Below are positions 14,081 to 50,400 of a DNA stretch of 64,000 nt, piece after piece. How positions within the stretch are numbered: the stretch's first letter is position 1; each line of letters begins with the position of its first letter. Under the pieces are notes generated by a model. That model made no database searches, was not told where the DNA came from, and worked only from the letters and a program-made list of their open reading frames with translations. Source of the stretch: Bathymodiolus brooksi (lineage: Eukaryota; Mollusca; Bivalvia; Mytilida; Modiolidae); the NCBI GenBank assembly GCA_963680875.1, contig OY804579.1, positions 31,667,804-31,731,803 on the forward strand, written 5' to 3'. A program made the position numbers and the translations under genes.

Positions 14081-14318
14081 GTGTAAATACGACCGACGAT
14101 CCATTGAATGGCAAGAGACTTCACAAATCTGTTTCCTTCTCTTATATGTATTGTAATATATTGTTTGCATGCAGCCATTATAACATCAGTTGATTTTGTT
14201 ATTGTATATTACAAAAAATATTAAAAAGTAAAAATAAATTAAAAGTAAAAATAAAACAAAGAGAACTGTCAATCATGTAAGTATTGTCTTTGTTGTAAAG
14301 AAAAAATACCTAGAGTTT

Positions 14319-14852
14319 CCCATGCCAACATACGTAAGTATTATACCCACTGTATGTTATCTTGTATTCCAAAACTTCCGCATGCCCAAAACATGTATGT
14401 ATTATACCCACTATATGTCATCTTATATTCCAAAACTTTCGTATGCCCAAAACATGTATGTATTATACCCACTATATGTCATCTTATATTCCAAAACTTT
14501 CGTATGCCCAAAACATGTATGTATTATACCCACTATATGTGATCTTATATTCCAAAACTTTCGTATGCCCAAAACATGTATGTATTATACCCACTATATG
14601 TCATCTTATATTCCAAAACTTCCGCATGCCCAAAACATGTATGTATTATACCCACTATATGTCATCTTATATCCCAAAACTTCCGCATGCCCAAAACATG
14701 TATGTATTATACCCACTATATGTCATCTTATATTCCAAAACTTTCGTATGCCCAAAACATGTATGTATTATACCCACTATATGTCATCTTATATCCCAAA
14801 ACTTTCGCATGCCCAAAACATGTATGTATTATACCCACTGTATGTTATCTTA
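14319..14852. repeat. 61-bp minisatellite, block 1 (about 8.5 copies)
   Basis: Tandem 61-bp units with landmarks 'ccaaaactttcgtatgccc', 'acatgtatgtattataccc' and 'tatgtcatcttata'. Copies differ mainly at ttcgta/tccgca and tattcc/tatccc. Open frames of up to 218 codons on the plus strand cycle through the three frames because 61 is not a multiple of three. They are repeat translations, not genes. Confidence 0.95.
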
Positions 14853-15075
14853 TATTACGAATTTAGTTTGTTACACATATTTTCATTGGTTCTTCAGCCC
14901 TGAATGTCAGCATATATTCGGAAAACAGACGGGGTATATATTTCAGTCCCCAAAAACGATTATTACATGCACGACAAAACATTACGCTTCACTGAATCAA
15001 TGGTATAATACGGAATAATAAATGTATTTTTACCAAATTAAATGCTGTTTTTATACTCAAAACGGCTGCATGAAC
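14853..15075 (+). repeat. Dispersed repeat, about 220 bp (copy 1)
   Basis: Closely matches the reverse complement of 36422-36642: 'gaatttagtttgttacacat', 'ggttcttcagccctgaatgt', 'ttcggaaaacagacggggta', 'aaaacattacgcttcactga' and 'actcaaaacggctgcatga' all occur in both, in order. The sequence starts abruptly where the 61-bp array stops, and copy 2 has no array beside it. Confidence 0.85.
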
Positions 15076-15689: not shown

Positions 15690-16015
15690 ATATCCCAAAA
15701 CTTTCCCATGCCAACACATGTATGTATTATACCCACTGTATGTTATCTTATATCCCAAAACTTTCCCATGCCAACACATGTATATATTATACCCACTGTA
15801 TGTCATCTTATATTCCAAAACTTTCGTATGCCTAAAACAGGTATGTATTATACCCACTATATGTCATCTTATATTCCAAAACTTTCGCATGCCCAACACA
15901 TGTATGTATTATACCCACTATATGTCATCTTATAGTATAAACCTTTATTATAGCCATCATATGTATGTATTATAACCCAGTGTATGTCATCTTATATTGC
16001 AAAACTTCCTCATAA
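15690..16015. repeat. 61-bp minisatellite, block 2 (about 5 copies)
   Basis: Same unit as 14319-14852, here with 'ttcccatgccaacacatgta' variants in the first two copies. The last copies are degenerate. Confidence 0.9.
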
Positions 16016-18689: not shown

Positions 18690-20636
18690 ATATGTGACGT
18701 GGCGTCTTTTCAAACCAGTTCGATCTGAACCTCTTCATGATAATAACAGAAAATTCCTCCATATTCCGTTTGCTAACAAAGGAATCGATGCTTTTAACAT
18801 CAGCAACATTCTTAATAGAAAAGAGGTCGTAAAAGAAATTCCACCATATTTCAAAAATCAATCTGTTCCCATTGTCTCCAAAAGCTACACTAACAGCATT
18901 GGCCGTAAAATTGTCAACTACAAAGAAGCATTGCAAGATATTAACATAGAAGAGTACCTTAAGAACCCTCTGACTTGTGACTGCTCCCACTCTCCTTTTC
19001 AATACAACCCATCTGGACATGTAATCACTGGTGATCTAAAATCATTCAACATGAGAGTCTCCGAAAGGTGATTTCTCATGGTCCTAAATTCAGGGAACCT
19101 CAACACATCAATTGGAAACATAATTTCAAGATAATTATGGATGCTGTTGAAAATTATGCCAGAAGGTGGATAAAGAGAGAAGTAGACCAAGATCCTTGTC
19201 AGACTGGGTTAGAACAATCAGGTGTCTAGTACAAGGTCGGATTCGCAAACTCAAAAATTGTGTTAATAGTCGACCTAAGTCTGCATTTAAAGACCAAGAA
19301 GCTGTTAAGTGTCTTTCCTCTCTTCATGACAAAATATGTTATCGTTCCTGCGGACAAGGCTTCCAACAACATCGTGTTTGTATGTAAATCATATTACTAC
19401 GAATGCCTAATCAAGGAATTAGGCATAAATAACAACACCTCTGGTAATACCACATACAAACCAACTTCGTTCGACAAAGATAAAATCCTAGCTAACCACA
19501 GATCCTTCATGACCTCTTTAAGCATTCCCTCTGGTAAAGAGTGTGAGGATCTATTCTATTTGCATTGGATACCTATGCTCCATAAGACACCATACAAAGA
19601 AAAGTACATACCGGGATCATCAACTTGTTCGACGAAATAACTGTCTATTCACCTGACAAAGATTCTGTCTGCAGTAAAAGAGGGACAACAGAAATATTGT
19701 GAAACTGTTTACTCGCGTAGTGGCATAAATCACATGTGGATTTTGAAAAACTCTAAAGATCTTTTGGATAACCTTAAATCAAGATCTTTCTCTCAGGTAT
19801 CCTCCATCAAAACTTTTGAATTTTCAACTCTATATACCACCCTACCGCACGACAAACTAAAAACCCGCTTAAAAGAAACCATTCACAAAGCTTTCAGTCA
19901 TAGAAACTATGGCTCAAAATTTGTTGTATTAGGCTACAATTCCACATATTTTTCAAACAAAATTCAAAAAGGTAAAACATGATACTCCGAGGAACAAGTG
20001 ATCAGTATGCTGGAGTTCCTCATCGATAATATATTTGTACCGATGGGTTAGAATTGTGCTCTTCTAGCCGATTTATTTTTATACTCATATGAGTCGGAGT
20101 TTCTTCAAAATATTGTAAAAGATAAGAAGATTCATGAAGCTATAGCCTTTAATTTCACATACAGGTATATTGATGATGTTTTATCTATCAATAATCCTAG
20201 ATTTGCAGAATTTCTTCCATTGATATATCCTCCAGATCTGGAAGTTAAAGAGACCACAGATACAGCTTCGTCCGCATCATTTTTGGACTTATACCTCGCA
20301 TTTGACGACAGTGGTCAACTCAGTACTAAAATTTATGATAAACGGGATGACTTCAATTTCAAAATCATAAATTTTCCAAATATGTGCAGCAATATACCAG
20401 CTTCTCCTGCATATGGTGTTTACATCTCGCAATTGATTCGTTATGCATGGGCCAGTAGCAATTATTATGATTTCTTGAAACGTCATCTTTATCTGAGAAA
20501 CAGGCTACTGGACCAGGGCTATAAAAAGATTCGCCTTATTCGATCTCTTAAAAAGTTTATATACCGATACCAAGATCTTGTCGGAAAATATTCGGTCTCT
20601 GCAGAGACGATAGTAAGCGATGGATTTTCATAAATT
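18690..20636 (+). pseudogene. Penelope-like reverse transcriptase, decayed
   Basis: A roughly 640-residue coding remnant in the order expected for the Penelope-like family of aquatic invertebrates: 'RKFLHIPFANKGIDAFNI' near the start, 'GPKFREPQHINWK', 'YVIVPADKASNNIVFVCKSY', 'PMLHKTPYKEKYIPGSSTCS', motif A, the YIDD box at 20166-20177, then 'LYLAFDD' and 'YDKRDDFNF'. It is dead. The frame shifts near 19070 and again before 19260, and three in-frame stops lie at 19638, 19980 and 20049. Motif A reads FEFSTLYTT, with Glu where a catalytic Asp is expected, and a short deletion precedes 'PMG'. No GIY-YIG endonuclease was seen. Assignment to Penelope-like rather than another retroelement rests on motif recall. 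Confidence 0.75.
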
Positions 20637-22866: not shown

Positions 22867-23037
22867 GCACTGGTTATACTGGTTGGACCTTCTGGACTGT
22901 TTGGGGACCATGTCTTATCAAAAACAATTCGGCAGACAAGAATTGTGAGGGGTACCAGACCAGGAAGCGAGATCATTACCACCATGGACACTGGGAAAAA
23001 GCACAGGAGCAATCCAAGTCTTGTTTCCTAACAGCAG
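22867..23037 (+). CDS. TSP1-like exon 1
   Basis: A 171-base exon between 'tcgtttcacag' and 'cagcag' plus a 'gtattt' donor, phase 1 at both ends, as usual for shuffled extracellular modules. It encodes TGYTGWTFWTVWGPC, with the W-x-x-W-x-x-W ladder of TSP1 modules (the Trp that are often C-mannosylated). 'CEGYQTRKRDH' follows, matching the Arg-layer strand. Only three Cys are present instead of six, so the module is degenerate or its disulphide pattern is reduced. The last 34 bases of the exon are the seed of the 57-bp minisatellite that follows. Confidence 0.8.
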
Positions 23038-23620
23038 GTATTTTATATAGCAGCTGATCACAGGAGCAATCTAAGTCTTGTTTCCTAACAGCAGGTATTT
23101 TATATAGCAGCTGATCACAGGAGCAATCTAAGTCTTGTTACCTAACAGCAGGTATTCTATATAGCAGCTGACCACAAGAACAATCTAAGTCTTGTTTCCT
23201 AACAGCAGGTATTTTATATAGCAGCTGATCACAGGAGCAATCTATGTCTTGTTTCCTAACAGCAGGTATTTTATATAGCAGCTAATCACAAGAGCAATCT
23301 AAGTCTTGTTACCTAACAGCAGGTATCCTATATAGCAGCTGATCACAGAAGCAATCTTAAATCTTGTTTCCTAACAGCAGGTATTCTATATAGCCGCTGA
23401 TCACAGAAGCAATCTATTTCTTGTTTCCTAAAAGCAGGTATTCTATATAGCAGCTGATCACAGGAGCAATCTAAGTCTTGTTTCCTAAAAGCAGGTATTC
23501 TATATAGCAGCTGATCACAGGAGCAATCTAAGTTTTGTTTCAACAGGTATTTTATATTGCAGCTGATCACAGGAGCAATCTAAGTTTTGTTTCAACAGGT
23601 ATTTTATATAGCAGCTGATA
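23004..23620 (+). repeat. 57-bp minisatellite seeded by the exon-1 splice donor (about 10 copies)
   Basis: Each unit contains the last 34 bases of the TSP1-like exon ('aggagcaatctaagtcttgt' ... 'cctaacagcag') followed by the first 23 bases of the intron ('gtattttatatagcagctga' and three more). The real exon end is the first unit. The last two units have lost about eight bases before the donor. So the intron starts with a ladder of copies of the authentic 5' splice site. Reading on from the exon reaches a TGA eight codons after the donor. Confidence 0.95.
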
Positions 23621-24472: not shown

Positions 24473-24634
24473 ATGTTGTCAATGGCAACTACACAACATG
24501 GACAGAATGGCAGGACTGTTCGGCCAATTGTTTTGGGAATACAAATAGATATCGATATTGTAATAATCCTACACCTTGTAATGGAGGAAAAGATTGTAGT
24601 GTCATTGGAGTTGATACACTGACAAAGCCATGTG
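24473..24634 (+). CDS. TSP1 exon 2
   Basis: A 162-base phase 1-1 exon between 'tttatgtttgtag' and a strong 'gtaagt' donor. It encodes a full-looking TSP1 module: 'NYTTWTEWQDCSANCFGNTN', then 'RYRYCNNPTPCNGGKDC', ending in 'VDTLTKPCG'. Six Cys are present, as expected for TSP1, with the WxxW motif and the Arg-x-Arg layer. NYT is a potential N-glycosylation site. Its first codon is completed by the last base of exon 1 to give Asp. The last 40 bases are the seed of the 63-bp minisatellite that fills the next intron. Confidence 0.92.
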
Positions 24635-27600
24635 GTAAGTATGTGTTGTAATAAGTATGTAGTGTGATTGGAGGTGATACACTGACAAAGCCATGTGGTA
24701 AGTATGTGTTGTAATAAGTCTGTAGTGTGATTGGAGTTGATACACTGACAAAGCCATGTGGTAAGTATGTGTTGTAATAAGTATGTAGTGTGATTGGAGT
24801 TGATACACTGACAAAGACATGTGGTAAGTATGTGTTGTAATACGTATGTAGTGTGATTGGAGGTGATACACTGACAAAGCCATGTGGTAAGTATGTGTTG
24901 TAATAAGTCTGTAGTGTGATATTTGAGTTGACACACTGACAAAGCCATGTGGTATGTATGTGTTGTAATAAATCTGTAGTGTGATTAGAGTTGATACATT
25001 GACAAAGCCATGTTGTATGTATGTGTTGTACTAAGCATGAAGCGTGATTGGAGGTGATACACTGACAAAGCCATGTGGTAAGTATGTGTTGTAATAAGTG
25101 TGAAGCGTGATTGGAGGTGATACACTGACAAAGCCATGTGGTAAGTATGTGTTGTAATATGTCTGTAGTGTGATTGGAGTTGATACACTGACAAAGCCAT
25201 GTGGTAAGTATGTGTTGTAATAAGTCTGTAGTGTCATTGGAGTTGATACACTGACAAAGCCATGTGGTAAGTATGTGTTGTAATAAGTCTGTAGTGTCAT
25301 TGGAGTTGATACACTGACAAAGTCATGTGGTAAGTATGTATTGTAATACGTCTGTAGTGCCATTGTAGTCGATGCACTGACAAAGCCATGTGGTATGTAT
25401 GTGTTGTAATAGTATGTAGTGCGATTGGAGTTGATACACTGGCAAAACCATGTGGTAACTATGTGTTGTAATAAGTCTGTAGTGTCATTGGAGTTGATAC
25501 ACTGACAAAGACATGTGGTTAGTATGTTTGTAATACGTATGTAGTGTGATTGGAGGTGATACACTGACAAAGACATGTGGTAAGTATGTGTTGTAATAAG
25601 TCTGTAGTGTGATATTTGAGTTGACACACTGACAAAGCCATGTGGTATGTATGTGTTGTAATAAATCTGCAGTGTTATTGGAGTTGATACATTGACAAAG
25701 CCATGCTGTATATATGTGTTGTACTAAGCATGAAGCGTGATTGGAGGTGATACACTGACAAAGCCATGTGGTAAGTATGTGTTGTAATAAGTGTGAAGCA
25801 TGATTGGAGTTGATACACAGACAAAGCCATGTGGTAAGTATGTGTTGTAATAAGTCTGTAGTGTGATTGGAGGTGATACACTGACAAAGACATGTGGTAA
25901 GTATGTGTTGTAATAAGTCTGTAGTGTGATATTTGAGTTGACACACTGACAAAGCCATGTGGTATGTATGTGTTGTAATAAATCTGCAGTGTTATTGGAG
26001 TTGATACATTGACAAAGCCATGCTGTATATATGTGTTGTACTAAGCATGAAGCGTGATTGGAGGTGATACACTGACAAAGCCATGTGGTAAGTATGTGTT
26101 GTAATAAGTGTGAAGCATGATTGGAGTTGATACACAGACAAAGCCATGTGGTAAGTATGTGTTGTAATAAGTCTGTAGTGTCATTGGAGTTGATACACTG
26201 ACAAAGTCATGTGGTAAGTATGTATTGTAATAAGTCTGTAGTGCCATTGGAGTCGATGCACTGACAAAGCCATGTGGTAAGTATGTGTTGTAATACGTAT
26301 GTAGTGTGATTGGAGGTGATACACTGACAAAGCCATGTGGTAAGTATGTGTTGTAATATGTCTGTAGTGTGATTGGAGTTGATACACTGACAAAGCCATG
26401 TGGTAAGTATGTGTTGTAATAAGTCTGTAGTGTCATTGGAGTTGATACACAGACAAAGCCATGTGGTAAGTATGTGTTGTAATAAGTTTGTAGTGTCATT
26501 GGAGTTGATACACTGACAAAGTCATGTGGTAAGTATGTATTGTAATAAGTCTGTAGTGCCATTGGAGTCGATGCACTGACAAAGCCATGTGGTAAGTATG
26601 TGTTGTAATAGTATGTAGTGTGATTGGAGTTGATACACTGACAAAACCATGTGGTAACTATGTGTTGTAATATGTCTGTATTGTCATTGAATTTGATACA
26701 CTGACAAAGCCATGTGATAAGTATGTGTTGTAATAAGTCTGTAGTGTCATTGGAGTTGATACACTGACAAAGACATGTGGTAAGTATGTGTTGTAATACG
26801 TATGTAGTGTGATTGGAGGTGATACACTGAAAAGTCCATGTGGTAAGTATGTGTTGTAATAAGTCTGTAGTGTGATATTTGAGTTGACACACTGACAAAG
26901 CCATGTGGTATGTATGTGTTGTAATAAATATGTAGTGTTATTGGAGTTGATACATTGACAAAGCCATGTTGTATGTATGTGTTGTATTAAGCATGAAGCG
27001 TGATTGGAGGTGATACACTGACAAAGCCATGTGGTAAGTATGTGTTGTAATAAGTGTGAAGCGTGATTGGAGGTGATACACTGACAAAGCCATGTGGTAA
27101 GTATGTGTTGTAATATGTCTGTAGTGTGATTGGAGTTGATACACTGACAAAGCCATGTGGTAAGTATGTGTTGTAATAAGTCTGTAGTGTCATTGGAGTT
27201 GATACACTGACAAAGCCATGTGGTAAGTATGTGTTGTAATAAGTCTGTAGTGTCATTGGAGTTGATACACTGACAAAGTCATGTGGTAAGTATGTATTGT
27301 AATAAGTCTGTAGTGCCATTGGAGTCGATGCACTGACAAAGCAATGTAGTAAGTATGTGTTGTAATAGTATGTAGTGTGATTGGAGTTGATACACTGACA
27401 AAACCATGTGGTAACTATGTGTTGTAATATGTCTGTAGTGTCATTGAAGTTGATACACTGACAAAGCCATGTGATAAGTATGTGTTGTAATAAGTCTGTA
27501 GTGTCATTGGAGTTGATACATTGACAAAGCCATGTTGTATGTATGTGTTGTACTAAGCATGAGGCGTGATTGGAGGTGATACACTGACAAAGCCATGTGG

Positions 27601-30600
27601 TAAGTATGTGTTGTAATAAGTGTGAAGCGTGATTGGAGGTGATACACTGACAAAGCCATGTGGTAAGTATGTGTTGTAATATGTCTGTAGTGTGATTGGA
27701 GTTGATACACTGACAAAGCCATGTGGTAAGTATGTGTTGTAATAAGTCTGTAGTGTCATTGGAGTTGATACACTGACAAAGACATGTGGTAAGTATGTGT
27801 TGTAATACGTATGTAGTGTGATTGGAGGTGATACACTGAAAAAGCCATGTGGTAAGTATGCGTTGTAATAAGTCTGTAGTGTGATATTTGAGTTGACACA
27901 CTGACAAAGCCATGTGGTATGTATGTGTTGTAATAAATCTGTAGTGTTATTGGAGTTGATACATTGACAAAGCCATGTTGTATGTATGTGTTGTACCAAG
28001 CATGAAGCGTGATTGGAGGTGATACACTGACAAAGCCATGTGGTAAGTATGTGTTGTAATAAGTGTGAAGCGTGATTGGAGGTGATACACCGACAAAGCC
28101 ATGTGGTAAGTATGTGTTGTAATAAGTCTGTAGTGTCATTGGAGTTGATACACTGACAAAGTCATGTGGTAAGTATGTATTGTAATAAGTCTGTAGTGCC
28201 ATTGGAGTCGATGCACTGACAAAGCAATGTAGTAAGTATGTGTTGTAATAGTATGTAGTGTGATTGGAGTTGATACACTGACAAAACCATGTGGTAACTA
28301 TGTGTTGTAATATGTCTGTAGTGTCATTGAAGTTGATACACTGACAAAGCCATGTGATAAGTATGTGTTGTAATAAGTCTGTAGTGTCATTGGAGTTGAT
28401 ACATTGACAAAGCCATGTTGTATGTATGTGTTGTACTAAGCATGAGGCGTGATTGGAGGTGATACACTGACAAAGCCATGTGGTAAGTATGTGTTGTAAT
28501 AAGTGTGAAGCGTGATTGGAGGTGATACACTGACAAAGCCATGTGGTAAGTATGTGTTGTAATATGTCTGTAGTGTGATTGGAGTTGATACACTGACAAA
28601 GCCATGTGGTAAGTATGTGTTGTAATAAGTCTGTAGTGTCATTGGAGTTGATACACTGACAAAGACATGTGGTAAGTATGTGTTGTAATACGTATGTAGT
28701 GTGATTGGAGGTGATACACTGAAAAAGCCATGTGGTAAGTATGCGTTGTAATAAGTCTGTAGTGTGATATTTGAGTTGACACACTGACAAAGCCATGTGG
28801 TATGTATGTGTTGTAATAAATCTGTAGTGTTATTGGAGTTGATACATTGACAAAGCCATGTTGTATGTATGTGTTGTACCAAGCATGAAGCGTGATTGGA
28901 GGTGATACACTGACAAAGCCATGTGGTAAGTATGTGTTGTAATAAGTGTGAAGCGTGATTGGAGGTGATACACCGACAAAGCCATGTGGTAAGTATGTGT
29001 TGTAATATGTCTGTAGTGTGATTGGAGTTGATACACTGACAAACCCATTTGGTAGCTATGTGTTGTAATATGTCTGTAGTGTCATTGAAGTTGATACACT
29101 GACAAAGCCATGTGATAAGTATGTGTTGTAATAAGTCTGTAGTGTCATTGGAGTTGATACACTGACAAAGACATGTGGTAAGTATGTGTTGTAATACGTA
29201 TGTAGTGTGATTGGAGGTGATACACTGACAAAGTCATGTGGTAAGTATGTGTTGTAATAAGTCTGTAGTGTGATATTTGAGTTGACACACTGACAAAGCC
29301 ATGTGGTATGTATGTGTTGTAATAAATCTGTAGTGTTATTGGAGTTGATACATTGACAAAGCCATGTTGTATGTATGTGTTGTACTAAGCATGAAGCGTG
29401 ATTGGAGGTGATACGCTGACAAAGCCATGTGGTAAGTATGTGTTGTAATATGTCTGTAGTGTGATTGGAGTTGATACACTGACAAAGCCATGTGGTAAGT
29501 ATGTGTTGTAATAAGTCTGTAGTGTCATTGGAGTTGATACACTGACAAAGCCATGTGGTAAGTATGTGTTGTAATAAGTCTGTAGTGTCATTGGAGTTGA
29601 TACACTGACAAAGTCATGTGGTAAGTATGTATTGTAATACGTCTGTAGTGCCATTGTAGTCGATGCACTGACAAAGCCATGTGGTAAGTATGTGTTGTAA
29701 TAGTATGTAGTGCGATTGGAGTTGATACACTGGCAAAACCATGTGGTAACTATGTGTTGTAATAAGTCTGTAGTGTCATTGGAGTTGATACACTGACAAA
29801 GACATGTGGTTAGTATGTTTGTAATACGTATGTAGTGTGATTGGAGGTGATACACTGACAAAGACATGTGGTAAGTATATGTTGTAATAAGTTTGTAGTG
29901 TGATATTTGAGTTGACACACTGACAAAGCCATGTGGTATGTATGTGTTGTAATAAATCTGCAGTGTTATTGGAGTTGATACATTGACAAAGCCATGCTGT
30001 ATATATGTGTTGTACTAAGCATGAAGCGTGATTGGAGGTGATACACTGACAAAGCCATGTGGTAAGTATGTGTTGTAATAAGTGTGAAGCATGATTGGAG
30101 TTGATACACTGACAGAGCCATGTGGTAAGTATGTGTTGTAATAAGTCTGTAGTGTCATTGGAGTTGATACACAGACAAAGCCATGTGGTAAGTATGTGTT
30201 GTAATAAGTCTGTAGTGTCATTGGAGTTGATACACTGACAAAGTCATGTGGTAAGTATGTATTGTAATAAGTCTGTAGTGCCATTGGAGTCGATGCACTG
30301 ACAAAGCCATGTGGTAAGTATGTGTTGTAATACGTATGTAGTGTGATTGGAGGTGATACACTGACAAAGCCATGTGGTAAGTATGTGTTGTAATATGTCT
30401 GTAGTGTGATTGGAGTTGATACACTAACAAAGCCATGTGGTAAGTATGTGTTGTAATAAGTCTGTAGTGTCATTGGAGTTGATACACAGACAAAGCCATG
30501 TGGTAAGTATGTGTTGTAATAAGTTTGTAGTGTCATTGGAGTTGATACACTGACAAAGTCATGTGGTAAGTATGTATTGTAATAAGTCTGTAGTGCCATT

Positions 30601-33600
30601 GGAGTCGATGCACTGACAAAGCCATGTGGTAAGTATGTGTTGTAATAGTATGTAGTGTGATTGGAGTTGATACACTGACAAAACCATGTGGTAACTATGT
30701 GTTGTAATATGTCTGTATTGTCATTGAATTTGATACACTGACAAAGCCATGTGATAAGTATGTGTTGTAATAAGTCTGTAGTGTCATTGGAGTTGATACA
30801 CTGACAAAGACATGTGGTAAGTATGTGTTGTAATACGTATGTAGTGTGATTGGAGGTGATACACTGAAAAGTCCATGTGGTAAGTATGTGTTGTAATAAG
30901 TCTGTAGTGTGATATTTGAGTTGACACACTGACAAAGCCATGTGGTATGTATGTGTTGTAATAAATATGTAGTGTTATTGGAGTTGATACATTGACAAAG
31001 CCATGTTGTATGTATGTGTTGTATTAAGCATGAAGCGTGATTGGAGGTGATACACTGACAAAGCCATGTGGTAAGTATGTGTTGTAATAAGTGTGAAGCG
31101 TGATTGGAGGTGATACACTGACAAAGCCATGTGGTAAGTATGTGTTGTAATATGTCTGTAGTGTGATTGGAGTTGATACACTGACAAAGCCATGTGGTAA
31201 GTATGTGTTGTAATAAGTCTGTAGTGTCATTGGAGTTGATACACTGACAAAGCCATGTGGTAAGTATGTGTTGTAATAAGTCTGTAGTGTCATTGGAGTT
31301 GATACACTGACAAAGTCATGTGGTAAGTATGTATTGTAATAAGTCTGTAGTGCCATTGGAGTCGATGCACTGACAAAGCAATGTAGTAAGTATGTGTTGT
31401 AATAGTATGTAGTGTGATTGGAGTTGATACACTGACAAAACCATGTGGTAACTATGTGTTGTAATATGTCTGTAGTGTCATTGAAGTTGATACACTGACA
31501 AAGCCATGTGATAAGTATGTGTTGTAATAAGTCTGTAGTGTCATTGGAGTTGATACATTGACAAAGCCATGTTGTATGTATGTGTTGTACTAAGCATGAG
31601 GCGTGATTGGAGGTGATACACTGACAAAGCCATGTGGTAAGTATGTGTTGTAATAAGTGTGAAGCGTGATTGGAGGTGATACACTGACAAAGCCATGTGG
31701 TAAGTATGTGTTGTAATATGTCTGTAGTGTGATTGGAGTTGATACACTGACAAAGCCATGTGGTAAGTATGTGTTGTAATAAGTCTGTAGTGTCATTGGA
31801 GTTGATACACTGACAAAGACATGTGGTAAGTATGTGTTGTAATACGTATGTAGTGTGATTGGAGGTGATACACTGAAAAAGCCATGTGGTAAGTATGCGT
31901 TGTAATAAGTCTGTAGTGTGATATTTGAGTTGACACACTGACAAAGCCATGTGGTATGTATGTGTTGTAATAAATCTGTAGTGTTATTGGAGTTGATACA
32001 TTGACAAAGCCATGTTGTATGTATGTGTTGTACCAAGCATGAAGCGTGATTGGAGGTGATACACTGACAAAGCCATGTGGTAAGTATGTGTTGTAATAAG
32101 TGTGAAGCGTGATTGGAGGTGATACACCGACAAAGCCATGTGGTAAGTATGTGTTGTAATATGTCTGTAGTGTGATTGGAGTTGATACACTGACAAACCC
32201 ATTTGGTAGCTATGTGTTGTAATATGTCTGTAGTGTCATTGAAGTTGATACACTGACAAAGCCATGTGATAAGTATGTGTTGTAATAAGTCTGTAGTGTC
32301 ATTGGAGTTGATACACTGACAAAGACATGTGGTAAGTATGTGTTGTAATACGTATGTAGTGTGATTGGAGGTGATACACTGACAAAGTCATGTGGTAAGT
32401 ATGTGTTGTAATAAGTCTGTAGTGTGATATTTGAGTTGACACACTGACAAAGCCATGTGGTATGTATGTGTTGTAATAAATCTGTAGTGTTATTGGAGTT
32501 GATACATTGACAAAGCCATGTTGTATGTATGTGTTGTACTAAGCATGAAGCGTGATTGGAGGTGATTCGCTGACAAAGCCATGTGGTAAGTATGTGTTGT
32601 AATAAGTGTGACGCCTGACTGGAGGTGATACACTGACAAAGCCATGTGGTAAGTATGTGTTGTAATATGTCTGTAGTGTGATTGGAGTTGATGCACTGAC
32701 AAAGCCATGTGGTAAGTATGTGTTGTAATAAGTCTGTAGTGTCATTGGAGTTGATACACTGACAAAGCCATGTGGTAAGTATGTGTTGTAATAAGTCTGT
32801 AGTGTCATTGGAGTTGATACACTGACAAAGTCATGTGGTAAATATATATTGTAATAAGTCTGTAGTGCCATTGGAGTCGATGCACTGACAAAGCCATGTG
32901 GTAAGTATGTGTTGTAATAGTATGTAGTGTCATGGGAGTTGATGCACTGACAAAACCATGTGGTAACTATGTGTTGTAATATGTCTGTAGTGTCATTTGA
33001 AGTTGATACACTGACAAAACCATGTGATAAGTATGTGTTGTAATAAGTCTGTAGTGTCATTGGAGTTGATACACTGACAAAGCCATGTGGTAAGTATGTG
33101 TTGTAATAAGTCTGTAGTGTCATTGGAGTTAATACACTGACAAAGCCATGTGGTAAATATGTATTGTAATAAGTCTGTAGTGCCATTGGAGTCGATGCAC
33201 TGACAAAGCCATGTGGTAAGTATGTGCTGTAATAGTATGTAGTGTCATGGGAGTTGATACACTGACAAAACCATGTGGTAACTATGTGTTGTAATATGTC
33301 TGTAGTGTCATTGAAGTTGATACACTGACAAAGCCATGTGATAAGTATGTGTTGTAATAAGTCTGTAGTGTCATTGGAGTTGATACACTGACAAAGCCAG
33401 GTGGCAAGTAGGTGTTGTAATAAGTATGTGGTGTCATTGGAGTTGATACCCTGACAAACTTTGTGTTAAATATGTGTTGTAATAAGTATGTAGTGTGATT
33501 GGAGCTAATACGCTGACAAAGCCATGTGGTATGTATGTGTTGTAATAAATAATGTAGTGTGATTGGAGTTGATACACTGATAAAGCCATGTGATAAGTAT

Positions 33601-35033
33601 GTGTTGTAATAAGTCTGTAGTGTTATTGGAGTTGATACACTGACAAAGCAATGTGGTAAGTATGTGTTGTAATAAGTATGTAGTGTGATTGGAGTTGATA
33701 CACTGATAAAGCCATGTGGTAAGTATGTGTTGTAATAAGTCTGTAGTGTCATTGGAGTTGATACACTGACAAAGCCATGTGATAAGTATGTGTTGTAATA
33801 AGTCTGTAGTGTCATTGGAGTTGATACACTGACAAAGCCAGGTGGTAAGTATGTGTTGTAATAAGTATGTGGTGTCATTGGAGTTGATACCCTGACAAAC
33901 CTTGTGTTAAATATGTGTTGTAATAAGTATGCAGTGTGATTAGAGTTGATACACTGGCAAAGACATGTGATAAGTATGCGTTGTAATAAGTATGTAGTGT
34001 GATTGGAGTTGACACACTGACAAAGCCATGTGGTAAGTATGTGTTGTAATAAGTATGTAGTGTGATTGGAGTTGATACACTGACAAAGCCATGTGATAGG
34101 TATGTGTTGTAATAGGTATGTAGTGTCATTGGAGTTGATACACTGATAAAGCCTTATGTTAAATATGTGTCGTAATAAGTATGTAGCGTAATTGGAGCTA
34201 ATACGCTGACAAAGCCATGTGGTATGTATGTGTTGTAATAAGTATGTAGTGTGATTGGAGTTGATACACTGATAAAGCCATGTGGTAAGTATGTGTTGTA
34301 ATAAGTCTGTAGTGTCATTGGAGTTGATACACTGACAAACCTTGTGTTAAATATGTGTTGTAATAAGTATGTAGTGTGATTGGGGCTAATACGCTGACAA
34401 AGCCATGTGGTATGTATGTGTTGTAATAAATATGTAGTGTGATTGGAGTTGATACACTGACAAAGCCATGTGATATGTATGTGTTGTAATAAGTATGTAG
34501 TGTGATTGGAGTTGATACACTGACAAGGCCATGTGGTAAGTATGTGTTGTAATAAGTATGTAGTGTGATTGGAGTTGATACACTGACAAAGACATGTGGT
34601 AAGTATGTGTTGTAATAAATCTGTAGTGTGATTGGAGTTGATGCACTGACAAAGCCATGTGGTAAGTATGTGTTGTAATAAGTATATAGTGTGATTGTAG
34701 TTGATACACTGACAAAGACATGTGGTATGTATGTGTTGTAATAAGTATGTAGTGTGATTGGAGTTGATACACTGACAAAGCCATGTGGTAAGTATGTGTT
34801 GTAATAAATCTATAGTGTGATTGGAGTTGATACACTGACAAAGCCATGTGATAAATAGGTGTTGTAATAAGTATGTAGTGTGATTGGAGTTGATACACTG
34901 ACAAAGCCATGTGATAAATAGGTGTTGTAATAAATCTGTAGTGTGATTGGAGTTGATACACTGACAAAGCCATTTGTTAAATATGTATTGTAATAAGTAT
35001 GTAGTGTGATTAGAGTTGATAAAATGACAACGT
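24595..35033 (+). repeat. 63-bp minisatellite seeded by the exon-2 splice donor (about 165 copies)
   Basis: The unit is 40 bases of exon 2's 3' end ('tgtagtgtcattggagttga' then 'tacactgacaaagccatgtg') plus 23 bases of intron starting 'gtaagtatgtgttgtaata'. The genuine exon end is the first unit. The copy number is array length divided by 63. Most copies keep a strong 'gtg/gtaagt' donor, and others read gtatgt, gtaact or ataagt. Minus-strand open frames of up to 346 codons arise because 63 is a multiple of three and are not genes. Larger blocks are duplicated at spacings of 4,037 bp (for example 26938 and 30975) and 883 bp (27504 and 28387). Confidence 0.97.
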
Positions 35034-35039
35034 CATGTA

Positions 35040-35330
35040 TGAATTATCTGTATTTATTTACGTATACTGGTGTCCAACACGATTTCCATATCAGATGATC
35101 ATCGTCTCGTTTTACACTAACATGACGAGTGTCACATGTGGAGCAGGAACTACTAATCCTTCCGGAGCACTTGAGTTCATCACCTGGTTTTAGTGGGCTT
35201 CGGTTTGCTAGATCGTTGTTTGTTCTTTTGCCCTTTTTCGCTTGACCATTGTATTGTCTGTCCTTATCCGATTTACGACTCTTTATTCTCCCGTTGTTAT
35301 CTTCAAATATTTAATGTCTTGTAGGTGTGT
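35040..35330 (+). repeat. Mussel-type dispersed repeat
   Basis: Contains 'gagtgtcacatgtggagcag', 'cttccggagcacttgag' and 'tttagtgggcttcgg', followed by 'tttgcccttttt' and 'tccgatttacgactc' segments. I recognise this order from a repeat abundant in Mytilus genomes (established knowledge, not a search). It lies directly after the 63-bp array in the same intron. Confidence 0.7.
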
Positions 35331-35613
35331 GTGAGATGAGCTAAAAGTAATGTCTAATAAATAGGTGATGAAAGAAAATAATGTCACATTGATTGGTGAT
35401 GAAATCAAATAATTTGCCCTAGATGCGAGATCAGATAACATAAATTGTTCGTGTTGTCGAATGAAGCAAATCTTCTTGTATAATGGATGCACATCTACTA
35501 TTCGCTGTAATGTATGTTCGGACAACAGCAATCCAATTCAAGTTTCTTTTGTAAATGTTTTTGACTAACTCATGACGTGCATTCCGTGTTATTGTTTCTC
35601 CTGTAACATATAG

Positions 35614-35799
35614 GACCTGTAGATGCCGGTTGGTCAGAATGGGGATGGTGGAGTAACTGTGATATCCCTGAAAATAATAACAAGACATCTATCTATGGAA
35701 CTGGCACTCATAACAGAATTCGAACATGTACCAATCCAGTGGAAATTTGTGGAGGCGCTCATTGTGAAGGGGCTAACAATGAAACTGACCTTTGTAAAG
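35614..35799 (+). CDS. TSP1 exon 3
   Basis: A 186-base phase 1-1 exon between 'ctgtaacatatag' and 'gtaaat'. It encodes 'PVDAGWSEWGWWSNC', a strong TSP1 Trp ladder. An insertion with 'NNNKTSIYGTGTHN' follows, then 'RIRTCTNPVEICGGAHC' and 'NNETDLCKG'. Five Cys are visible. The second of the usual CSxxC pair is replaced by the inserted segment, so the fold is typical but one disulphide is altered. Two N-glycosylation sequons (NKT, NET). It follows the minisatellite-filled intron, so correct splicing requires the true exon-2 donor to be chosen across about 11 kb. Confidence 0.92.
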
Positions 35800-37405: not shown

Positions 37406-38987
37406 TTACGCCTCAATGTCTTACAAGTGAAATATTTGATTCACACTACTTATCATCTACCAATCCTATGGTTGTTTATACTTCTGCCAAGGTGGATGTA
37501 GAAACCCAGACACAGAATCTTTGTATAAAGAATACAACGGTATACTACTATTGGGAGCTATATGTACGACACATTAATGGTACTGTTACAGAAACTAAAA
37601 CTAACCACACTAACGACAAATTATATTTCAAGTTACATCCTGATGAACTGGACCCAGGTTTGTATCGTTTATATGTTAAAATTGGATATCCGTCAGATTT
37701 CATCCACTGGATGGAAGAATCCATGTATCTTAAAATTGAGCACCCTCCGCCCAATACTTTTATTAAAGGGGGTACAGGCAGAATTATAGGTAAAGGCCTT
37801 ATTGACTTTGATGGTCGTTCGGGATCATACAGTCTGAAAAATGGACCCGGAGATCCATCAGGACTTGTGTTTGATTGGATATGTATGAACTTTGTTACTC
37901 AATCAATATACAAACTATTAGAATTCAACATAGATCCCCGGTATGTGTTCCGTGATGATCTAGTTCTCGGTAAATGGTATGATACAGATTTTCTGTCACA
38001 AGTTCAAGAAAAAGTTATTCGGATAAATGCGTCAACGCTCTACACCCACGTTCAACAGATACAGAACAAGACAGGGACTAAGGCCAAACATTTAAGTGTT
38101 GCGTTTAATGATGTTCTTTTAACTGAGTATGATGCGAGCAACCCAGATAATTCTACCGGATACAGTAAGTTTGTTAGTAATAACTTTACCAATTATAATT
38201 ATACTGTGAATGACACTTTGCCGTTGACTGATTTTTTTTCTATCACATGTATGGAAGATATGTCAATAAATAACGTGCCACAAATAACCAAAAATAATAT
38301 AATTCTTCAGAGTAATAATGAACTTCTAAGGAATGAATTCATTACATTTGTCCACACATTGTTCAGTACCAATTCAACTTTTGCTGATGCGTTAGTCGAC
38401 TTTCTAGAGCAACTTTCTGAAAGTTACCTGATGCTAAACAGTGTCAAAAATGTGAAAACATTACCAGGGATGGATAACATGTCATTCTTTGATAACCTTG
38501 AGGACTGGTTAGATATCGTCGGTGAGATAAGAAATGATTTAGGCGCCCTCAATACCAGTATCGGTATTTACCGCAATTATCTTCCTGTGATGGATGAAGC
38601 TATAAGTCTTTCTAATTACATCGGCATGGATGGTTTTCTACGCCTGAAAATCGACAAAGTCAAGAAAGGATGTGCATATCATTTTCTGGATTTTTTGCAA
38701 GATATATATGATATGTTATTTAAGATTCAAAACACCGATTGGGAAAGTATAAAAAATAACGAGTTGAATTATACAACATGGATAACGGACGAACTCATTG
38801 GTAATCATATGTGTGACAACTTTACTGGTACTTCTGATGGCTATGCTCAGATGAATGTTACAAGTGATGATGTTGATGCTGGGATGGGGTATATGGTGTA
38901 TCTCAGAGCAGACAACGAAGGTTCTGTTGGTTACTTTCTACAGTATACACAGACAATAGATGGAGACCCTCCAGAGCTCGAAATTGA
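37406..38987 (+). CDS. REJ-module exon 1 (large, with about 330-residue insert)
   Basis: A 1,582-base exon encoding about 527 residues, entering at phase 1 and leaving at phase 2 through 'gtatgt'. The REJ pattern is clear: 'YYYWELYVRHINGT' near residue 45, 'LDPGLYRLYVKI' near 85, 'FIKGGTGRIIGKGLIDFDG' near 120, and 'GLVFDWICM' near 155. These are the GG-x-x-R and WxC signatures of polycystin/REJ proteins. The REJ pattern resumes only near residue 490 with 'MGYMVYLRADNEGS' and 'DGDPPELEIE'. The roughly 330 residues between are Asn-rich and unfamiliar. About sixteen N-glycosylation sequons mark the exon as extracellular. Confidence 0.88.
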
Positions 38988-42565: not shown

Positions 42566-42747
42566 GTGTAGATTGAATTGTATGAAGAAAACAGCAGTTA
42601 CATCTATAATGTCTTTGGTAGCTGTCTGTCCGTCATGTACTCTCACAGAATTACTCGACGCTACATTCACATGGGATTTTAAATACTTTCCTTTAGACAC
42701 ACGTATAGCAGAGACGTATCCTGACTGGGAATCATTGATGTTATCAG
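42566..42747 (+). CDS. REJ-module exon 2
   Basis: A 182-base exon between 'acatttgcag' and 'gtaagc', phase 2 in and phase 1 out. With the preceding exon it reads ELEIE-CRLNCMKK, then 'SIMSLVAVCPSCTLTELLDA', then 'FTWDFKYFPL'. The Cys-x-x-x-Cys of 'CRLNC' and the 'CPSC' pair followed by a Trp strand are the central REJ signature. Perfect phase joining over a 3.6-kb intron supports the model. The ATG-initiated frame at 42573 is internal and not a start. Confidence 0.9.
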
Positions 42748-43998: not shown

Positions 43999-44172
43999 AT
44001 ATTACGACCAGAAAATTTGTATTGAAGGCAGGTTTACAACAGAATCAAGGCTATATTGTAGAAGCTAATATACTACTTCAGTCAGGAAGACTAAGTAAAA
44101 GCATCTGGATCGTAAATACAGATTATCTCCCTTATGGGGGAACCTGTTCAACAAAGAAAAGTCGATATTTTG
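43999..44172 (+). CDS. REJ-module exon 3
   Basis: A 174-base phase 1-1 exon ending at a 'ttttg' before a 'gtttgt' donor. It encodes 'FVLKAGLQQNQGYIVEANIL', then 'SKSIWIVNTDYLPYGGTC', then 'STKKSRYFG'. The 'L..G..Y' strand and the closing 'vN..P.GG.C' with a final Gly are hallmarks of REJ/polycystin-1 proteins, where this element precedes further REJ sequence. No exon for the continuation was found; the remaining window is minisatellite. The donor (gtttgt) is weaker than the others. Confidence 0.9.
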
Positions 44173-44488
44173 GTTTGTATTATATATAATATTCTCAGTT
44201 TTCTAATGTCTACCAATCAAATCATTTTATTTACGAATGTTTTTTTTTTCAATTTTAAATGCGTCCCTTCTATCAGTCTATTTTGTCGTATTTCAAAAGC
44301 AAACGTTTAACATGAAATGCAACAATATATTCACCATGATATCAAATTCCATTCCCGGGTTTAGAGGGTCCTTTTCTTTTGTAATAAAATACCAATACTT
44401 GGTAGTCCTCAAACTTTTACTACCAAATTTATTTATCTCATTTCAAGATAAAAAACCTTTTCAGTCTGAAAACACAAAATCAAACAAA
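44173..44488. other. Start of the last intron in view
   Basis: AT-rich sequence between the REJ exon 3 donor and the 39-bp array. An open frame crossing it (44237-44680) merges into the array and is not a gene. Confidence 0.5.
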
Positions 44489-47400
44489 TCAAACGTTTTA
44501 GCATCACAGGGTGGTCTTGATTCAATATCAAACGTTTTAACATCACAGGGTGGTCTTGATTCAATATCAAACGTTTTAACATCACAGGGTGGTCTTGATT
44601 CAATATCAAACGTTTTAGCATCACAGGGTGGTCTTGATTCAATATCAAATGTTTTAACTAACATCACAGGGTGGTCTTGATTCAATATCAAACGTTTTAA
44701 CATCACAGGGTGGTCTTGATTCAATATCAAACGTTTTAACATCACAGGGTGGTCTTGATTCAATATCAAACGTTTTAACATCACAGGGTGGTCTTGATTC
44801 AATATCAAACGTTTTAACATCACAGGGTGGTCTTGATTCAATATCAAACGTTTTACCATCACAGGGAGGTCTTGATTCAATATCAAACGTTTTACCATCA
44901 CACGGAGGTCTTGATTCAATATCAAACGTTTTAACAGCAAAGGGTGGTCTTAATTCAATATCAAACGTTTTAACATCAAAGGGTGGTCTTGATTCAATAT
45001 CAAACGTTTTAACATCACAGGGTGGTCTTGATTCAATATCAAACGTTTTAACATCACAGGGTGGTCTTGATTCAATATCAAACGTTTTAACATCACAGGG
45101 TGGTCTTGATTCAATATCAAACGTTTTAGCATCACAGGGTGGTCTTGATTCAATATCAAACGTTTTAACATCACAGGGTGGTCTTGATTCAATATCAAAC
45201 GTTTTAACATCAAAGGGTGGTCTTGATTCAATATCAAACGTTTTAGCATCACAGGGAGGTCTTGATTCAATATCAAACGTTTTACCATCACAGGGAGGTC
45301 TTGATTCAATATCAAACGTTTTAACAGCAAAGGGTGGTCTTGATTCAATATCAAACGTTTTAACATCACAGGGTGGTCTTGATTCAATATCAAACGTTTT
45401 AACATCACAGGGTGGTCTTGATTCAATATCAAACGTTTTAACATCACAGGGTGGTCTTGATTCAATATCAAACGTTTTAACATCACATGGTAGTCTTGAT
45501 TCAATATCAAACGTTTTAGCATCACAGGGTGGTCTTGATTCAATATCAAACGTTTTAACATCACAGGGTGGTCTTGATTCAATATCAAACGTTATAACAT
45601 CACAGGGTGGTCTTGATTCAATATCAAACGTTTTAACATCAAAAGGTGGTCTTGATTCAATATCAAACGTTTTAACATCACAGGGTGGTCTTGATTCAAT
45701 ATCAAACGTTTTAACATCACAGGGTGGTCTTGATTCAATATCAAACGTTTTAACATCACAGGGTGGTCTTGATTCAATATCAAACGTTTTAACATCACAG
45801 GGTGGTCTTGATTCAATATCAAACGTTTTAACATCACAGGGTGGTCTTGATTCAATATCAAACGTTTTAACATCACAGGGTGGTCTTGATTCAATATCAA
45901 ACGTTTTAACATCACAGGGTGGTCTTGATTCAATATCAAACGTTTTAACATCACATGGTAGTCTTGATTCAATATCAAACGTTTTAGCATCACAGGGTGG
46001 TCTTGATTCAATATCAAACGTTTTAACATCACAGGGTGGTCTTGATTCAATATCAAACGTTATAACATCACAGGGTGGTCTTGATTCAATATCAAACGTT
46101 TTAACATCAAAAGGTGGTCTTGATTCAATATCAAACGTTTTAACATCACAGGGTGGTCTTGATTCAATATCAAACGTTTTAACATCACAGGGTGGTCTTG
46201 ATTCAATATCAAACGTTTTAACATCACAGGGTGGTCTTGATTCAATATCAAACGTTTTAACATCACAGGGTGGTCTTGATTCAATATCAAACGTTTTAAC
46301 ATCACAGGGTGGTCTTGATTCAATATCAAACGTTTTAACATCACAGGGTGGTCTTGATTCAATATCAAACGTTTTAACATCCCAGGGTGGTCTTGATTCA
46401 ATATCAAACGTTTTAACATCACAGGGTGGTCTTGATTCAATATCAAACGTTTTAACATCACAGGGTGGTCTTGATTCAATATCAATCGTTTTAACATCAC
46501 AGGGTGGTCTTGATTCAATATCAAACGTTTTAACATCACATGGTGGTCTTGATTCAATATCAAACGTTTTAGCATCAAAGGGTGGTCTTGATTCAATATC
46601 AAACGTTTTAACATCACAGGGTGGTCTTGATTCAATATCAAACGTTTTAACATCACAGGGTGGTCTTGATTCCATATCGAACGTTTTAACATCACAGGGT
46701 GGTCTTGATTCAATATCAAACGTTTTAACATCACAGGGTGGTCTTGATTCAATATCAAACATTTTAACATCACAGGGTGGTCTTGATTCAATATCAAACG
46801 TTTTAACATCACAGGGTGGTCTTGATTCAATATCAAACGTTTTAATATCACAGGGTGGTCTTGATTCAATATCCAACGTTTTAACATCACAGGGTGGTCT
46901 TGATTCAATATCAAACGTTTTAACATCACAGGGTGGTCTTGATTCAATATCGAACGCTTTAGCATCAAAGGGTGGTCTTGATTCAATATCAAACGTTTTA
47001 GCATCAAAGGGTGGTCTTGATTCAATATCAAACGTTTTAGCATCACAGGGTGGTCTTGATTCAATATCAAACGTTTTAGCATCACAGGGTGGTCTTGATT
47101 CAATATCAAACGTTTTAGCATCAAAGGGTGGTCTTGATTCAATATCAAATGTTATAACATCACAGGGTGGTCTTGATTCAATATCAAACGTTTTACCATC
47201 ACAGGGTGGTCTTGATTCAATATCAAACGTTTTAACAGCAAAGGGTGGTCTTGATTCAATATCAAACGTTTTAGCAACAAAGGGTGGTCTTGATTCAATA
47301 TCAAACGTTTTAGCATCAAAGGGTGGTCTTGATTCAATATCAAACGTTTTAACATCACAGGGTGGTCTTGATTCAATATCAAAGGTTTTAGCATTAAAGG

Positions 47401-50400
47401 GTGGTCTTGATTCAATATCAAACGTTTTAGCATCACAGGGTGGTCTTGATTCAATATCAAACGTTTTAGCATCAAAGGGTGGTCTTGATTCAATATCAAA
47501 CGTTTTAGCATCAAAGGGTGTTCTTGATTCAATATCAAACGTTTTAGCATCAAAGGGTGGTCTTGATTCAATATCAAACGTCTTAACATCACAGGGTGGT
47601 CTTGAATCAATATCAAACGTTTTAGCATCAAAGGGTGGTCTTGATTCAATATCAAACGTTTTAACATCAAAGGGTGGTCTTGATTCAATATCAAACGTTT
47701 TAACATCACAGGGTGGTCGTGATTCAATATCAAACGTTTTAACATCAAAGGGTGGTCTTGGTTCAATATCAAACGTTTTAACATCAAAGGGTGGTCTTGA
47801 TTCAATATCAAACGTTTTAACATCACAAGGTGGTCTTGATTCAATATCAAACGTTTTAACATCAAAGGGTTGTCTTGATTCAATATCAAACGTTTTAACA
47901 TCACAGGGTGGTCTTGATTCAATATCAAACGTTTTAACATCACAGGGTGGTCTTGATTCAATATCAAACGTTTTAACATCACAGGGTGGTCTTGATTCAA
48001 TATCAAACGTTTTAACATCACAGGGTGGTCTTGATTCAATAACAAACGTTTTAGCATCACAGGGTGGTCTTGATTCAATATCAAATGTTTTAACATCACA
48101 GGGTGGTCTTGATTCAATATCAAACGTTTTAACATCCCAGGGTGCTCTTGATTCAATATCAAACGTTTTAACATCACAGGGTTGTCTTGATTCAATATCA
48201 AACGTTTTAACATCAAAGGGTGGTCTTGATTCAATATCAAACGTTTTAGCATCAAAGGGTGGTCTTGATTCAATATCAAACGTTTTAATATTACAGGGTG
48301 GTCTTGATTCAATATCAAACGTTTTAGCATCAATTGGTGGTCTTTCTTGATTCAATATCAAACGTTTTAGCATCAAAGGGTGGTCTTGATCCAATATCAA
48401 ACGTTTTAACATCACAGGGTGGTCTTGATTCAATATCCAACGTTTTAGCATCAAAGGGTGGTCTTGATTCAATATCAAACGTTTTAACATCACAGGGTGG
48501 TCTTGATTCAATATCAAACGTTTTAGCATCAAAAGGTGGTCTTGATTCAATATCAAACGTTTTAGCATCAAAGGGTGGTCTTAATTCAATATCAAACGTT
48601 TTAGCATCAAAGGGTGTTCTTGATTCAATATCAAACGTTTTAGCATCAAAGGGTGGTCTTGATTCAATATCAAACGTTTTAACATCACAGGGTGGTCTTG
48701 ATTCAATATCAAACGTTTTAGCATCAAAGGGTGGTCTTGATTCAATATCAAACGTTTTAACATCAAAGGGTGGTCTTGATTCAATATCAAACGTTTTAAC
48801 ATCACAGGGTGGTCTTGATTCAATATCAAACGTTTTAACATCAAAGGGTGGTCTTGATTCAATATCAAACGTTTTAACATCACAGGGTGGTCTTGATTCA
48901 ATATCAAACGTTTTAACATCACAAGGTGGTCTTGATTCAATATCAAACGTTTTAACATCGCAGGGTGGTCTTGATTCAATATCAAACGTTTTAACATCAC
49001 AGGGTGGTCTTGATTCAATATCAAACGTTTTAACATCACAGGGTGGTCTTGATTCAATATCAAACGTTTTAACATCACAGGGTGGTCTTGATTCAATATC
49101 AAACGTTTTAACATCACAGGGTGGTCTTGATTCAATATCAAACGTTTTAGCATCAAAGGGTGGTCTTGATTCAATATCAAACGTTTTAACATCACAGGGT
49201 GGTCTTGATTCAACATCAAACGTTTTAGCATCACAGGGTGGTCTTGATTCAATATCAAACGTTTTAACATCACAGGGTGGTCTTGATTCAATATCGAACG
49301 TTTTAACATCACAGGGTGGTCTTGATTCAATATCAAACGTTTTAACATCACAGGGTGGTCTTTATTCAATATCAAACGTTTTTAACATCACAGGGTGGTC
49401 TTGATTCAATATCAAACATTTTAACATCACAGGGTGGTCTTGATTCAATATCAAACGTTTTAACATCACAGGGTGGTCTTGATTCAATATCAAACGTTTT
49501 AACATCAAAGGGTGGTCTTGATTCAATATCCAACGTTTTAACATCACAGGGTGGTCTTGATTCAATATCAAACGTTTTAACATCACAGGGTGGTCTTGAT
49601 TCAATATCAAACGTTTTAGCATCACAGGGTGGTCTTGATTCAATATCAAACGTTTTAGCATCAAAGGGTGGTCTTGATTCAATATCAAACGTTTTAATAT
49701 CACAGGGTGGTCTTGATTCAATATCAAACGTTTTAACATCAAAGGGTGGTCTTGATTCAATATCAAACGTTTTAGCATCAAAGGATGGTCTTGATTCAAT
49801 ATCAAATGTTATAACATCACAGGGTGGTCTTGATTCAATATCAAACGTTTTACCATCACAGGGTGGTCGTGATTCAATATCAAACGTTTTAACATCAAAG
49901 GGTGGTCTTGATTCAATATCAAACGTTTTAACATCACAGGGTGGTCTTGATTCAATATCAAACGTTTTAACATCACAAGGTGGTCTTGATTCAATATCAA
50001 ACGTTTTAACATCACAGGGTGGTCTTGATTCAATATCAAACGTTTTAACATCACAGGGTGGTCTTGATTCAATATCAAACGTTTTAACATCACAGGGTGG
50101 TCTTGATTCAATATCAAACGTTTTAACATCACAGGGTGGTCTTGATTCAATATCAAACGTTTTAACATCACAGGGTGGTCTTGATTCAATATCAAACGTT
50201 TTAGCATCAAAGGGTGGTCTTGATTCAATATCAAACGTTTTAACATCACAGGGTGGTCTTGATTCAATATCAAATGTTTTAACATCACAGGGTGGTCTTG
50301 ATTCAATATCAAACGTTTTAACATCCCAGGGTGCTCTTGATTCAATATCAAACGTTTTAACATCACAGGGTTGTCTTGATTCAATATCAAACGTTTTAAC

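Follow-up and report, generated by a model that had tools for sequence, protein, structure and literature searches.

In the bivalve Bathymodiolus brooksi, the end of a TSP1-coding exon is the first unit of a tandem array which carries the exon-intron boundary, splice donor included, 166 times over more than 10 kb of the following intron. The array is very probably a tolerated, unstable boundary minisatellite, in which the first donor is the productive one, some splicing leaks to the next units and the most likely role of the repeated copies is none. A smaller array spans the donor of the preceding exon. Both were found in a window of 64,000 nucleotides, the whole stretch of DNA analysed here, and the exons and the two boundary arrays lie on its plus strand.

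The arrangement amounts to a natural donor-choice experiment, with 95 donors identical in nine bases, ordered behind one exon and before one acceptor. Donor choice in relation to distance, be it first-come, governed by exon definition or nearest to the acceptor, could be read from it without an engineered construct. It also extends boundary minisatellites from the few units in the lancelet reports consulted to more than 10 kb in a mollusc, puts to the test the amount of duplicated splice signal that an intron can accommodate, and is of value for asking why exon ends become arrays.

The host gene

Coding exons E1 to E6 were placed in the window. E1 (22867..23037) is in phase 1 on both sides and TSP1-like by eye (GYTGWTFWTVWGPC...SKSCFLTAG); it is based on its reading frame and AG/GT borders and aligns with P0002, a protein of Mytilus coruscus, and with proteins of M. 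edulis. E2 (24473..24634), with phase 1-1, encodes a TSP1 domain (VVNGNYTTWTEWQDC...GGKDCSVIGVDTLTKPC) conserved in Mytilus proteins, and its authentic donor GTG/GTAAGT (24635..24640) gives a phase-1 E2-E3 junction matching the predicted M. coruscus protein (...GVDTLTKDCGPVDGGW). E3 (35614..35799), also phase 1-1 and TSP1-like, follows an acceptor AG at 35612-35613. The gene continues past E3, since E4 (37406..38987), placed by its exon borders, bears a REJ domain (Pfam PF02010, E 1.1e-08). E5 (42566..42747; CRLNCMKKTAVTSIMSLVAVCPSC...) resembles P0002 by eye, and E6 (43999..44160), whose start is set by its acceptor and whose end is approximate, resembles the proteins P0003 and P0005 by eye.

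The joined E1-E3 protein matched Pfam TSP_1 (PF00090, E 2e-05), with the best stretch in the E2 part and not in E1. A protein search with the joined 701 aa returned 16 proteins at E ≤0.001, the nearest named relatives being Mytilus sequences, which are predicted proteins and not transcripts. P0002 shares 54% identity over 99% of the query and is continuous over the E2-E3 junction (...NCSVLGVDTLTKDCGPVDGGW), whereas P0004, from M. edulis, jumps from the end of E2 to the start of E4 without E3, which counts against a continuous E2-E3. P0001 matches 72% of the query at 99% identity and passes the E4 donor into intron sequence; it therefore looks genomic and is uninformative on splicing.

In an alignment of nine proteins, the positions corresponding to G102, L106, K108 and C110, at the end of E2, are invariant. 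On this sequence evidence the E2 end is ancestral coding sequence, and because it is conserved in the Mytilus proteins the array was made from the exon and not the reverse. The claim of the first-pass annotation that 24473-24634 is a TSP1 exon is thus borne out by the phase 1-1 frame, the PF00090 match and the conserved Mytilus proteins. Its label of exon 2 denotes the second exon found in the window, a number which is not proven gene-wide.

An array built from the E2 boundary

The E2 array (24595..35051) consists of 63 bp x 166 with higher-order repeats, as delimited by TRF, a unit parse and BLAST. TRF reports a period of 63 at 24595-35038 with 165.6 copies and 89% matches; the parse gives 166 units, the last one degenerate, with the exact length of 63 bp in 139 of 167 parsed segments (the last segment being flank). 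When the 63-base E2 donor boundary is used as a BLAST query, 166 forward matches of at least 40 bp are returned between 24595 and 35051. These figures, from one assembly, agree with the roughly 165 copies counted from the letters alone in the first-pass annotation.

Unit 1 (24595-24657) comprises the last 40 bases of E2 (24595-24634) and the first 23 bases of the intron (24635-24657), and it differs from the array consensus at 2 of 63 sites. The exonic part of the consensus translates as CSVIGVDTLTKPC, the residues at the end of E2. Parse and BLAST accordingly uphold the earlier description of both the unit composition and the exon end as the first unit. A boundary-spanning exact 30-mer occurs 41 times against 0.00 expected, so a chance likeness between unit and exon end, which had been named as an outcome that would overturn that description, is excluded. 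The same 30-mer had 0 exact matches in viral contigs, none being expected for an animal gene.

The GT at the donor position is kept in 143 of the 165 full units and lost in 22. The earlier statement that most copies keep "gtg/gtaagt" therefore stands for the GT, while the whole donor 9-mer (GTGGTAAGT) is present in only 95/165.

The array would have started as a tandem duplication of the 3' boundary of the exon, taking in the 40 exon bases, the donor and the 23 intron bases, and its growth to about 166 units, in part through steps on the kilobase scale, may have been due to unequal exchange or copy-slippage. The new copies would be intronic because they are located downstream of the original donor.

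Turnover and variation among units

The array appears to turn over in large steps. Its longest exact internal repeat, with copies 4037 bp apart, is 1735 bp long and forms part of a block (26111..28171) that recurs 4037 bp downstream (30148-32208) with 99.5% identity over 2061 bp. Blocks of about 99 to 100% identity are found at 4037-, 3154- and 883-bp spacing, and with such near-identical kilobase blocks the large growth steps look recent; the blocks themselves are probably recent. Part of this pattern could be assembly duplication, in which case a shorter repeat was misassembled and its copy number inflated. We consider this highly unlikely, as the 165 units fall into 79 distinct types, the last unit is degenerate, and the array at the E1 donor shows that boundary amplification does occur in this gene.

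Divergence from the consensus, taken in blocks of 11 units, is 4.3% in units 1-11 and 5.6 to 8.2% elsewhere, the block at the 3' end having 6.1%. Unit 166 is degenerate, yet divergence does not rise across the 11-unit blocks at the 3' end. With divergence this fairly flat, the usual pattern of a homogenised core and diverged edges does not come out clearly, which counts against the reading of the array as an unstable minisatellite.

Variation within the array looks neutral. The exonic part carries 15 synonymous, 35 non-synonymous and 2 stop changes, against a neutral expectation of 14.8, 36.0 and 1.2. The donor 9-mer ranks 44th in conservation out of 63 nine-base windows, and it carries 1.44 variants per site compared with 1.22 elsewhere (P 0.83). 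Across the 165 units, neither variant counts nor window ranking gave a signal of selection on the array donors or on a peptide. The first-pass annotation had offered three roles: the neutral variants and near-identical blocks favour tolerated, unstable sequence, and the rank of the donor 9-mer lends no support to a splicing-control device.

Coding functions of the array were considered as well. A protein-coding repeat is ruled out by stops in all plus-strand frames (338 to 345 per frame) together with the neutral substitution counts; the array is not open in the frame of the exon with amino-acid constraint, two stops being present already in unit 1. On the minus strand of 24635-35038 the three frames are mostly open, with 34 to 41 stops in about 3468 codons and a longest frame of 357 aa. 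This frame, the only one searched, had no match at E ≤0.001 among 4242 candidates, and being without relatives it was taken as a by-product of composition rather than as an antisense gene.

Splice signals and the probable use of the first donor

The ladder of donors ahead of the next acceptor, proposed in the first-pass annotation, is real, with a correction of the coordinate: 35613 is the last intron base, and the next exon runs from 35614. Strong donor-like sites number 9.3 per kb in the array; three control stretches have 0 to 0.45 per kb, and none of them holds a site reaching the score of the E2 donor. Scores were taken from a position table and the U1 5' end; the same table rates the E1 donor as weak (1.6) and that of E4 as poor (-1.46), and therefore does not place all real donors high.

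The first donor does not stand out from those behind it. Its 9-mer is shared by 94 other array donors and its predicted accessibility ranks 51 of 95; being neither stronger nor more accessible, it would have to be favoured by position if it is the main site. Through exon definition and co-transcriptional recognition, the spliceosome would most likely pick this first donor, with which the exon is completed at the shortest distance from its acceptor, and the whole array would then be removed together with the intron. In classical tests with duplicated donors, the one nearest the acceptor was often favoured, and on that pattern the order would be reversed. The reported use of two downstream repeat units as donors in human IFI6 (PMC4526556) also counts against a preference for the first donor.

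Some splicing probably reaches the next few donors. Past the first donor the frame reads KPCGKYVL and then TAA TAA within unit 1, and with these two in-frame stops any donor after the first extends the exon into a stop. Leaked transcripts would thus meet the in-frame TAA of unit 1 and would be truncated or degraded. It is possible to see a function in this leak, namely a splicing rheostat in which a fixed share of transcripts uses array donors, to be degraded at the in-frame TAA or to yield a short secreted TSP1 protein, with the length of the array setting the productive fraction and being kept for that purpose. The identity of so many donors to the real one, the fact that every later donor reads into the same stop, and the stops at the consensus stop positions in 162/165 units would all suit such a device, for which the reported alternative use of repeat donors in IFI6 offers a precedent (PMC4526556). 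This function is nonetheless unlikely, given that conservation is no higher at the donors than elsewhere in the unit, that 22 of the 165 units have lost the GT, and that the near-identical kilobase blocks suggest an unstable array length.

The density of strong donor-like sites, as scored with the position table, speaks for a further role as a U1 decoy or in telescripting, whereby about 95 strong U1 sites would guard the long intron from premature polyadenylation or slow splicing. The array contains 16 AATAAA motifs, between 24967 and 34929, which is within the control range of about 11 to 27 for equal length; no special need for protection is therefore visible, and a role in intronic polyadenylation is rejected on the same count. 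As the full donor is missing from 14 of the 16 units which bear an AATAAA, and the array donors are without conservation, a guarding function has very little chance of being the explanation. In eleven of the 16 cases the AATAAA follows the closest full donor 9-mer on its upstream side by exactly 83 bases, apparently since these motifs belong to a single unit type that recurs.

Acceptor signals are scarce inside the array. None of its 717 AGs combines a YAG with at least 11 of 17 pyrimidines, and two reach at least 10, while control DNA holds 4.5 acceptor-like sites per kb at the cut-off of 11. This count, which covers the array and stops approximately 570 bases short of E3, is crude, since three of the six real acceptors of the gene miss the cut-off (E2 10, E4 10, E5 8). 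Microexons inside the array were rejected by this crude count, its AGs reaching a maximum of 10. Folding of units 1-4 was no better than that of shuffled sequences (z 0.17), and Rfam at gathering thresholds gave no match in the whole window.

A second array at the E1 donor

An array absent from the first-pass annotation, and hence a new observation, spans the E1 boundary at 23002..23619 with 11 units, as found by TRF, unit parsing and BLAST of the E1 donor boundary (11 matches). The standard unit is 57 bp long and consists of 36 exonic bases, which are the last 36 of E1, and 21 intronic bases; eight units measure 57 bp, one 58 and the last two 52. CAG/GTAT is kept in all 11, and the E1 frame past its donor reads FLTAGILYSS, followed by a stop within the first unit.

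Among the 11 boundaries of E1-E6 tested (5 donors and 6 acceptors, the E6 donor being left out as unplaced), the E1 donor boundary occurs 11 times and that of E2 166 times, and the other nine occur once. When 13 arrays were placed at random, at least two clean donor-straddling arrays arose in 0.5% of trials and at least one in 11%. This placement test is post hoc and draws on a single window with a single list of exons.

The two arrays extend to similar distances around their donors, -40/+23 at E2 and -36/+21 at E1, in two cases only. If two consecutive exon ends were turned into arrays independently, with such similar geometry, this would point to a cause coupled to splicing or transcription. 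Active 5' splice sites of this gene might in that case be amplification hotspots, the cause being for example an R-loop, pausing or boundary template switching, and the larger ladder a length-variable leak tuning output; we hold this combined reading to be improbable.

Both arrays start just after a purine run in the exon, at 22993-23001 (GGGAAAAAG) and 24583-24594 (GGAGGAAAAGAT). The runs end 36 and 40 bases before the ends of E1 and E2, respectively, which may be coincidence.

Comparison with known boundary repeats

Repeats of this kind are known; the E2 array is a very large one and is accompanied by a second. The original account of the amphioxus Adh case is reportedly that of Canestro in 2002. 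Tandem repeats across exon-intron boundaries of amphioxus genes are called "mirages" (PMC3087553, PMC3902484); the genes named are the globins BflGb6 and BflGb9, with an account of Adh3 (PMC3087553), and PGBD5, Adh and TnC (PMC3902484), and splicing is reported to be left undisturbed. In the mussel array, as in what is reported of mirages, a tandem unit within a gene crosses an authentic boundary and the real exon end forms one of the units, the splice signal is kept by many units and not by all, and minisatellite-like turnover leaves near-identical, internally homogenised copies within the cluster. The copy numbers given for amphioxus are 6 and 3 units in two haplotypes of BflGb6, one duplicate in BflGb9 and three units of 108 bp in PGBD5, in contrast to 166 units and more than 10 kb in a mollusc. 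Moreover, two consecutive donors of one gene are amplified in the mussel, and while the available descriptions place mirages at both 5' and 3' boundaries, the mussel gene has arrays at donors only (2/5), with 0/6 at acceptors.

Tandem repeats at exon-intron boundaries are also described as altering gene structure and forming introns (PMC2812944); unlike in those cases, no new intron was made here as far as seen, and an existing phase-1 intron was lengthened. Introns of earthworm metallothionein genes hold minisatellites, for which boundary crossing is not stated in the accessible text (PMC12783039). In human IFI6, two downstream repeat units are reported to serve as donors (PMC4526556), a likeness to the mussel gene in that a tandem repeat at an exon end carries splice donors.

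The literature searched, from which subscription papers were mostly absent and of which parts were available, held no boundary array of such length, nor any in a bivalve. The remark in the first-pass annotation that it knew of no described case on this scale thus survives for the size, which goes beyond the copy numbers in the available reports; the kind itself is known from mirages and IFI6. The IFI6 (6-16, G1P3) donor minisatellite, said to have been described by Turri et al. in 1995, has a unit of about 12 bp in about 26 copies and adds extra residues in frame, in contrast to 63 bp and 166 copies in the mussel, where each extension hits the stop of unit 1.

Other repeats in the window

Open stretches at 19230-20630 resemble, on visual inspection, a decayed reverse transcriptase element; the three stretches tried had no Pfam match above the cut-off. 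After E6 of the gene, a 39-bp array of about 500 copies extends from 44488 to 64000, the end of the window; it leaves 1230 codons open in a plus frame (SNVLTSQGGLDSI repeat) and 1308 in a minus frame, coding being unproven. Arrays of period 61 occur at 14316-14856 and 15690-16007, about 800 bp apart, and their units look alike. The left end of the window is filled by a 21-bp array of about 255 copies (4-5371), where stops are very rare in two of the three frames on the minus strand (5 and 8 in about 1790 codons).
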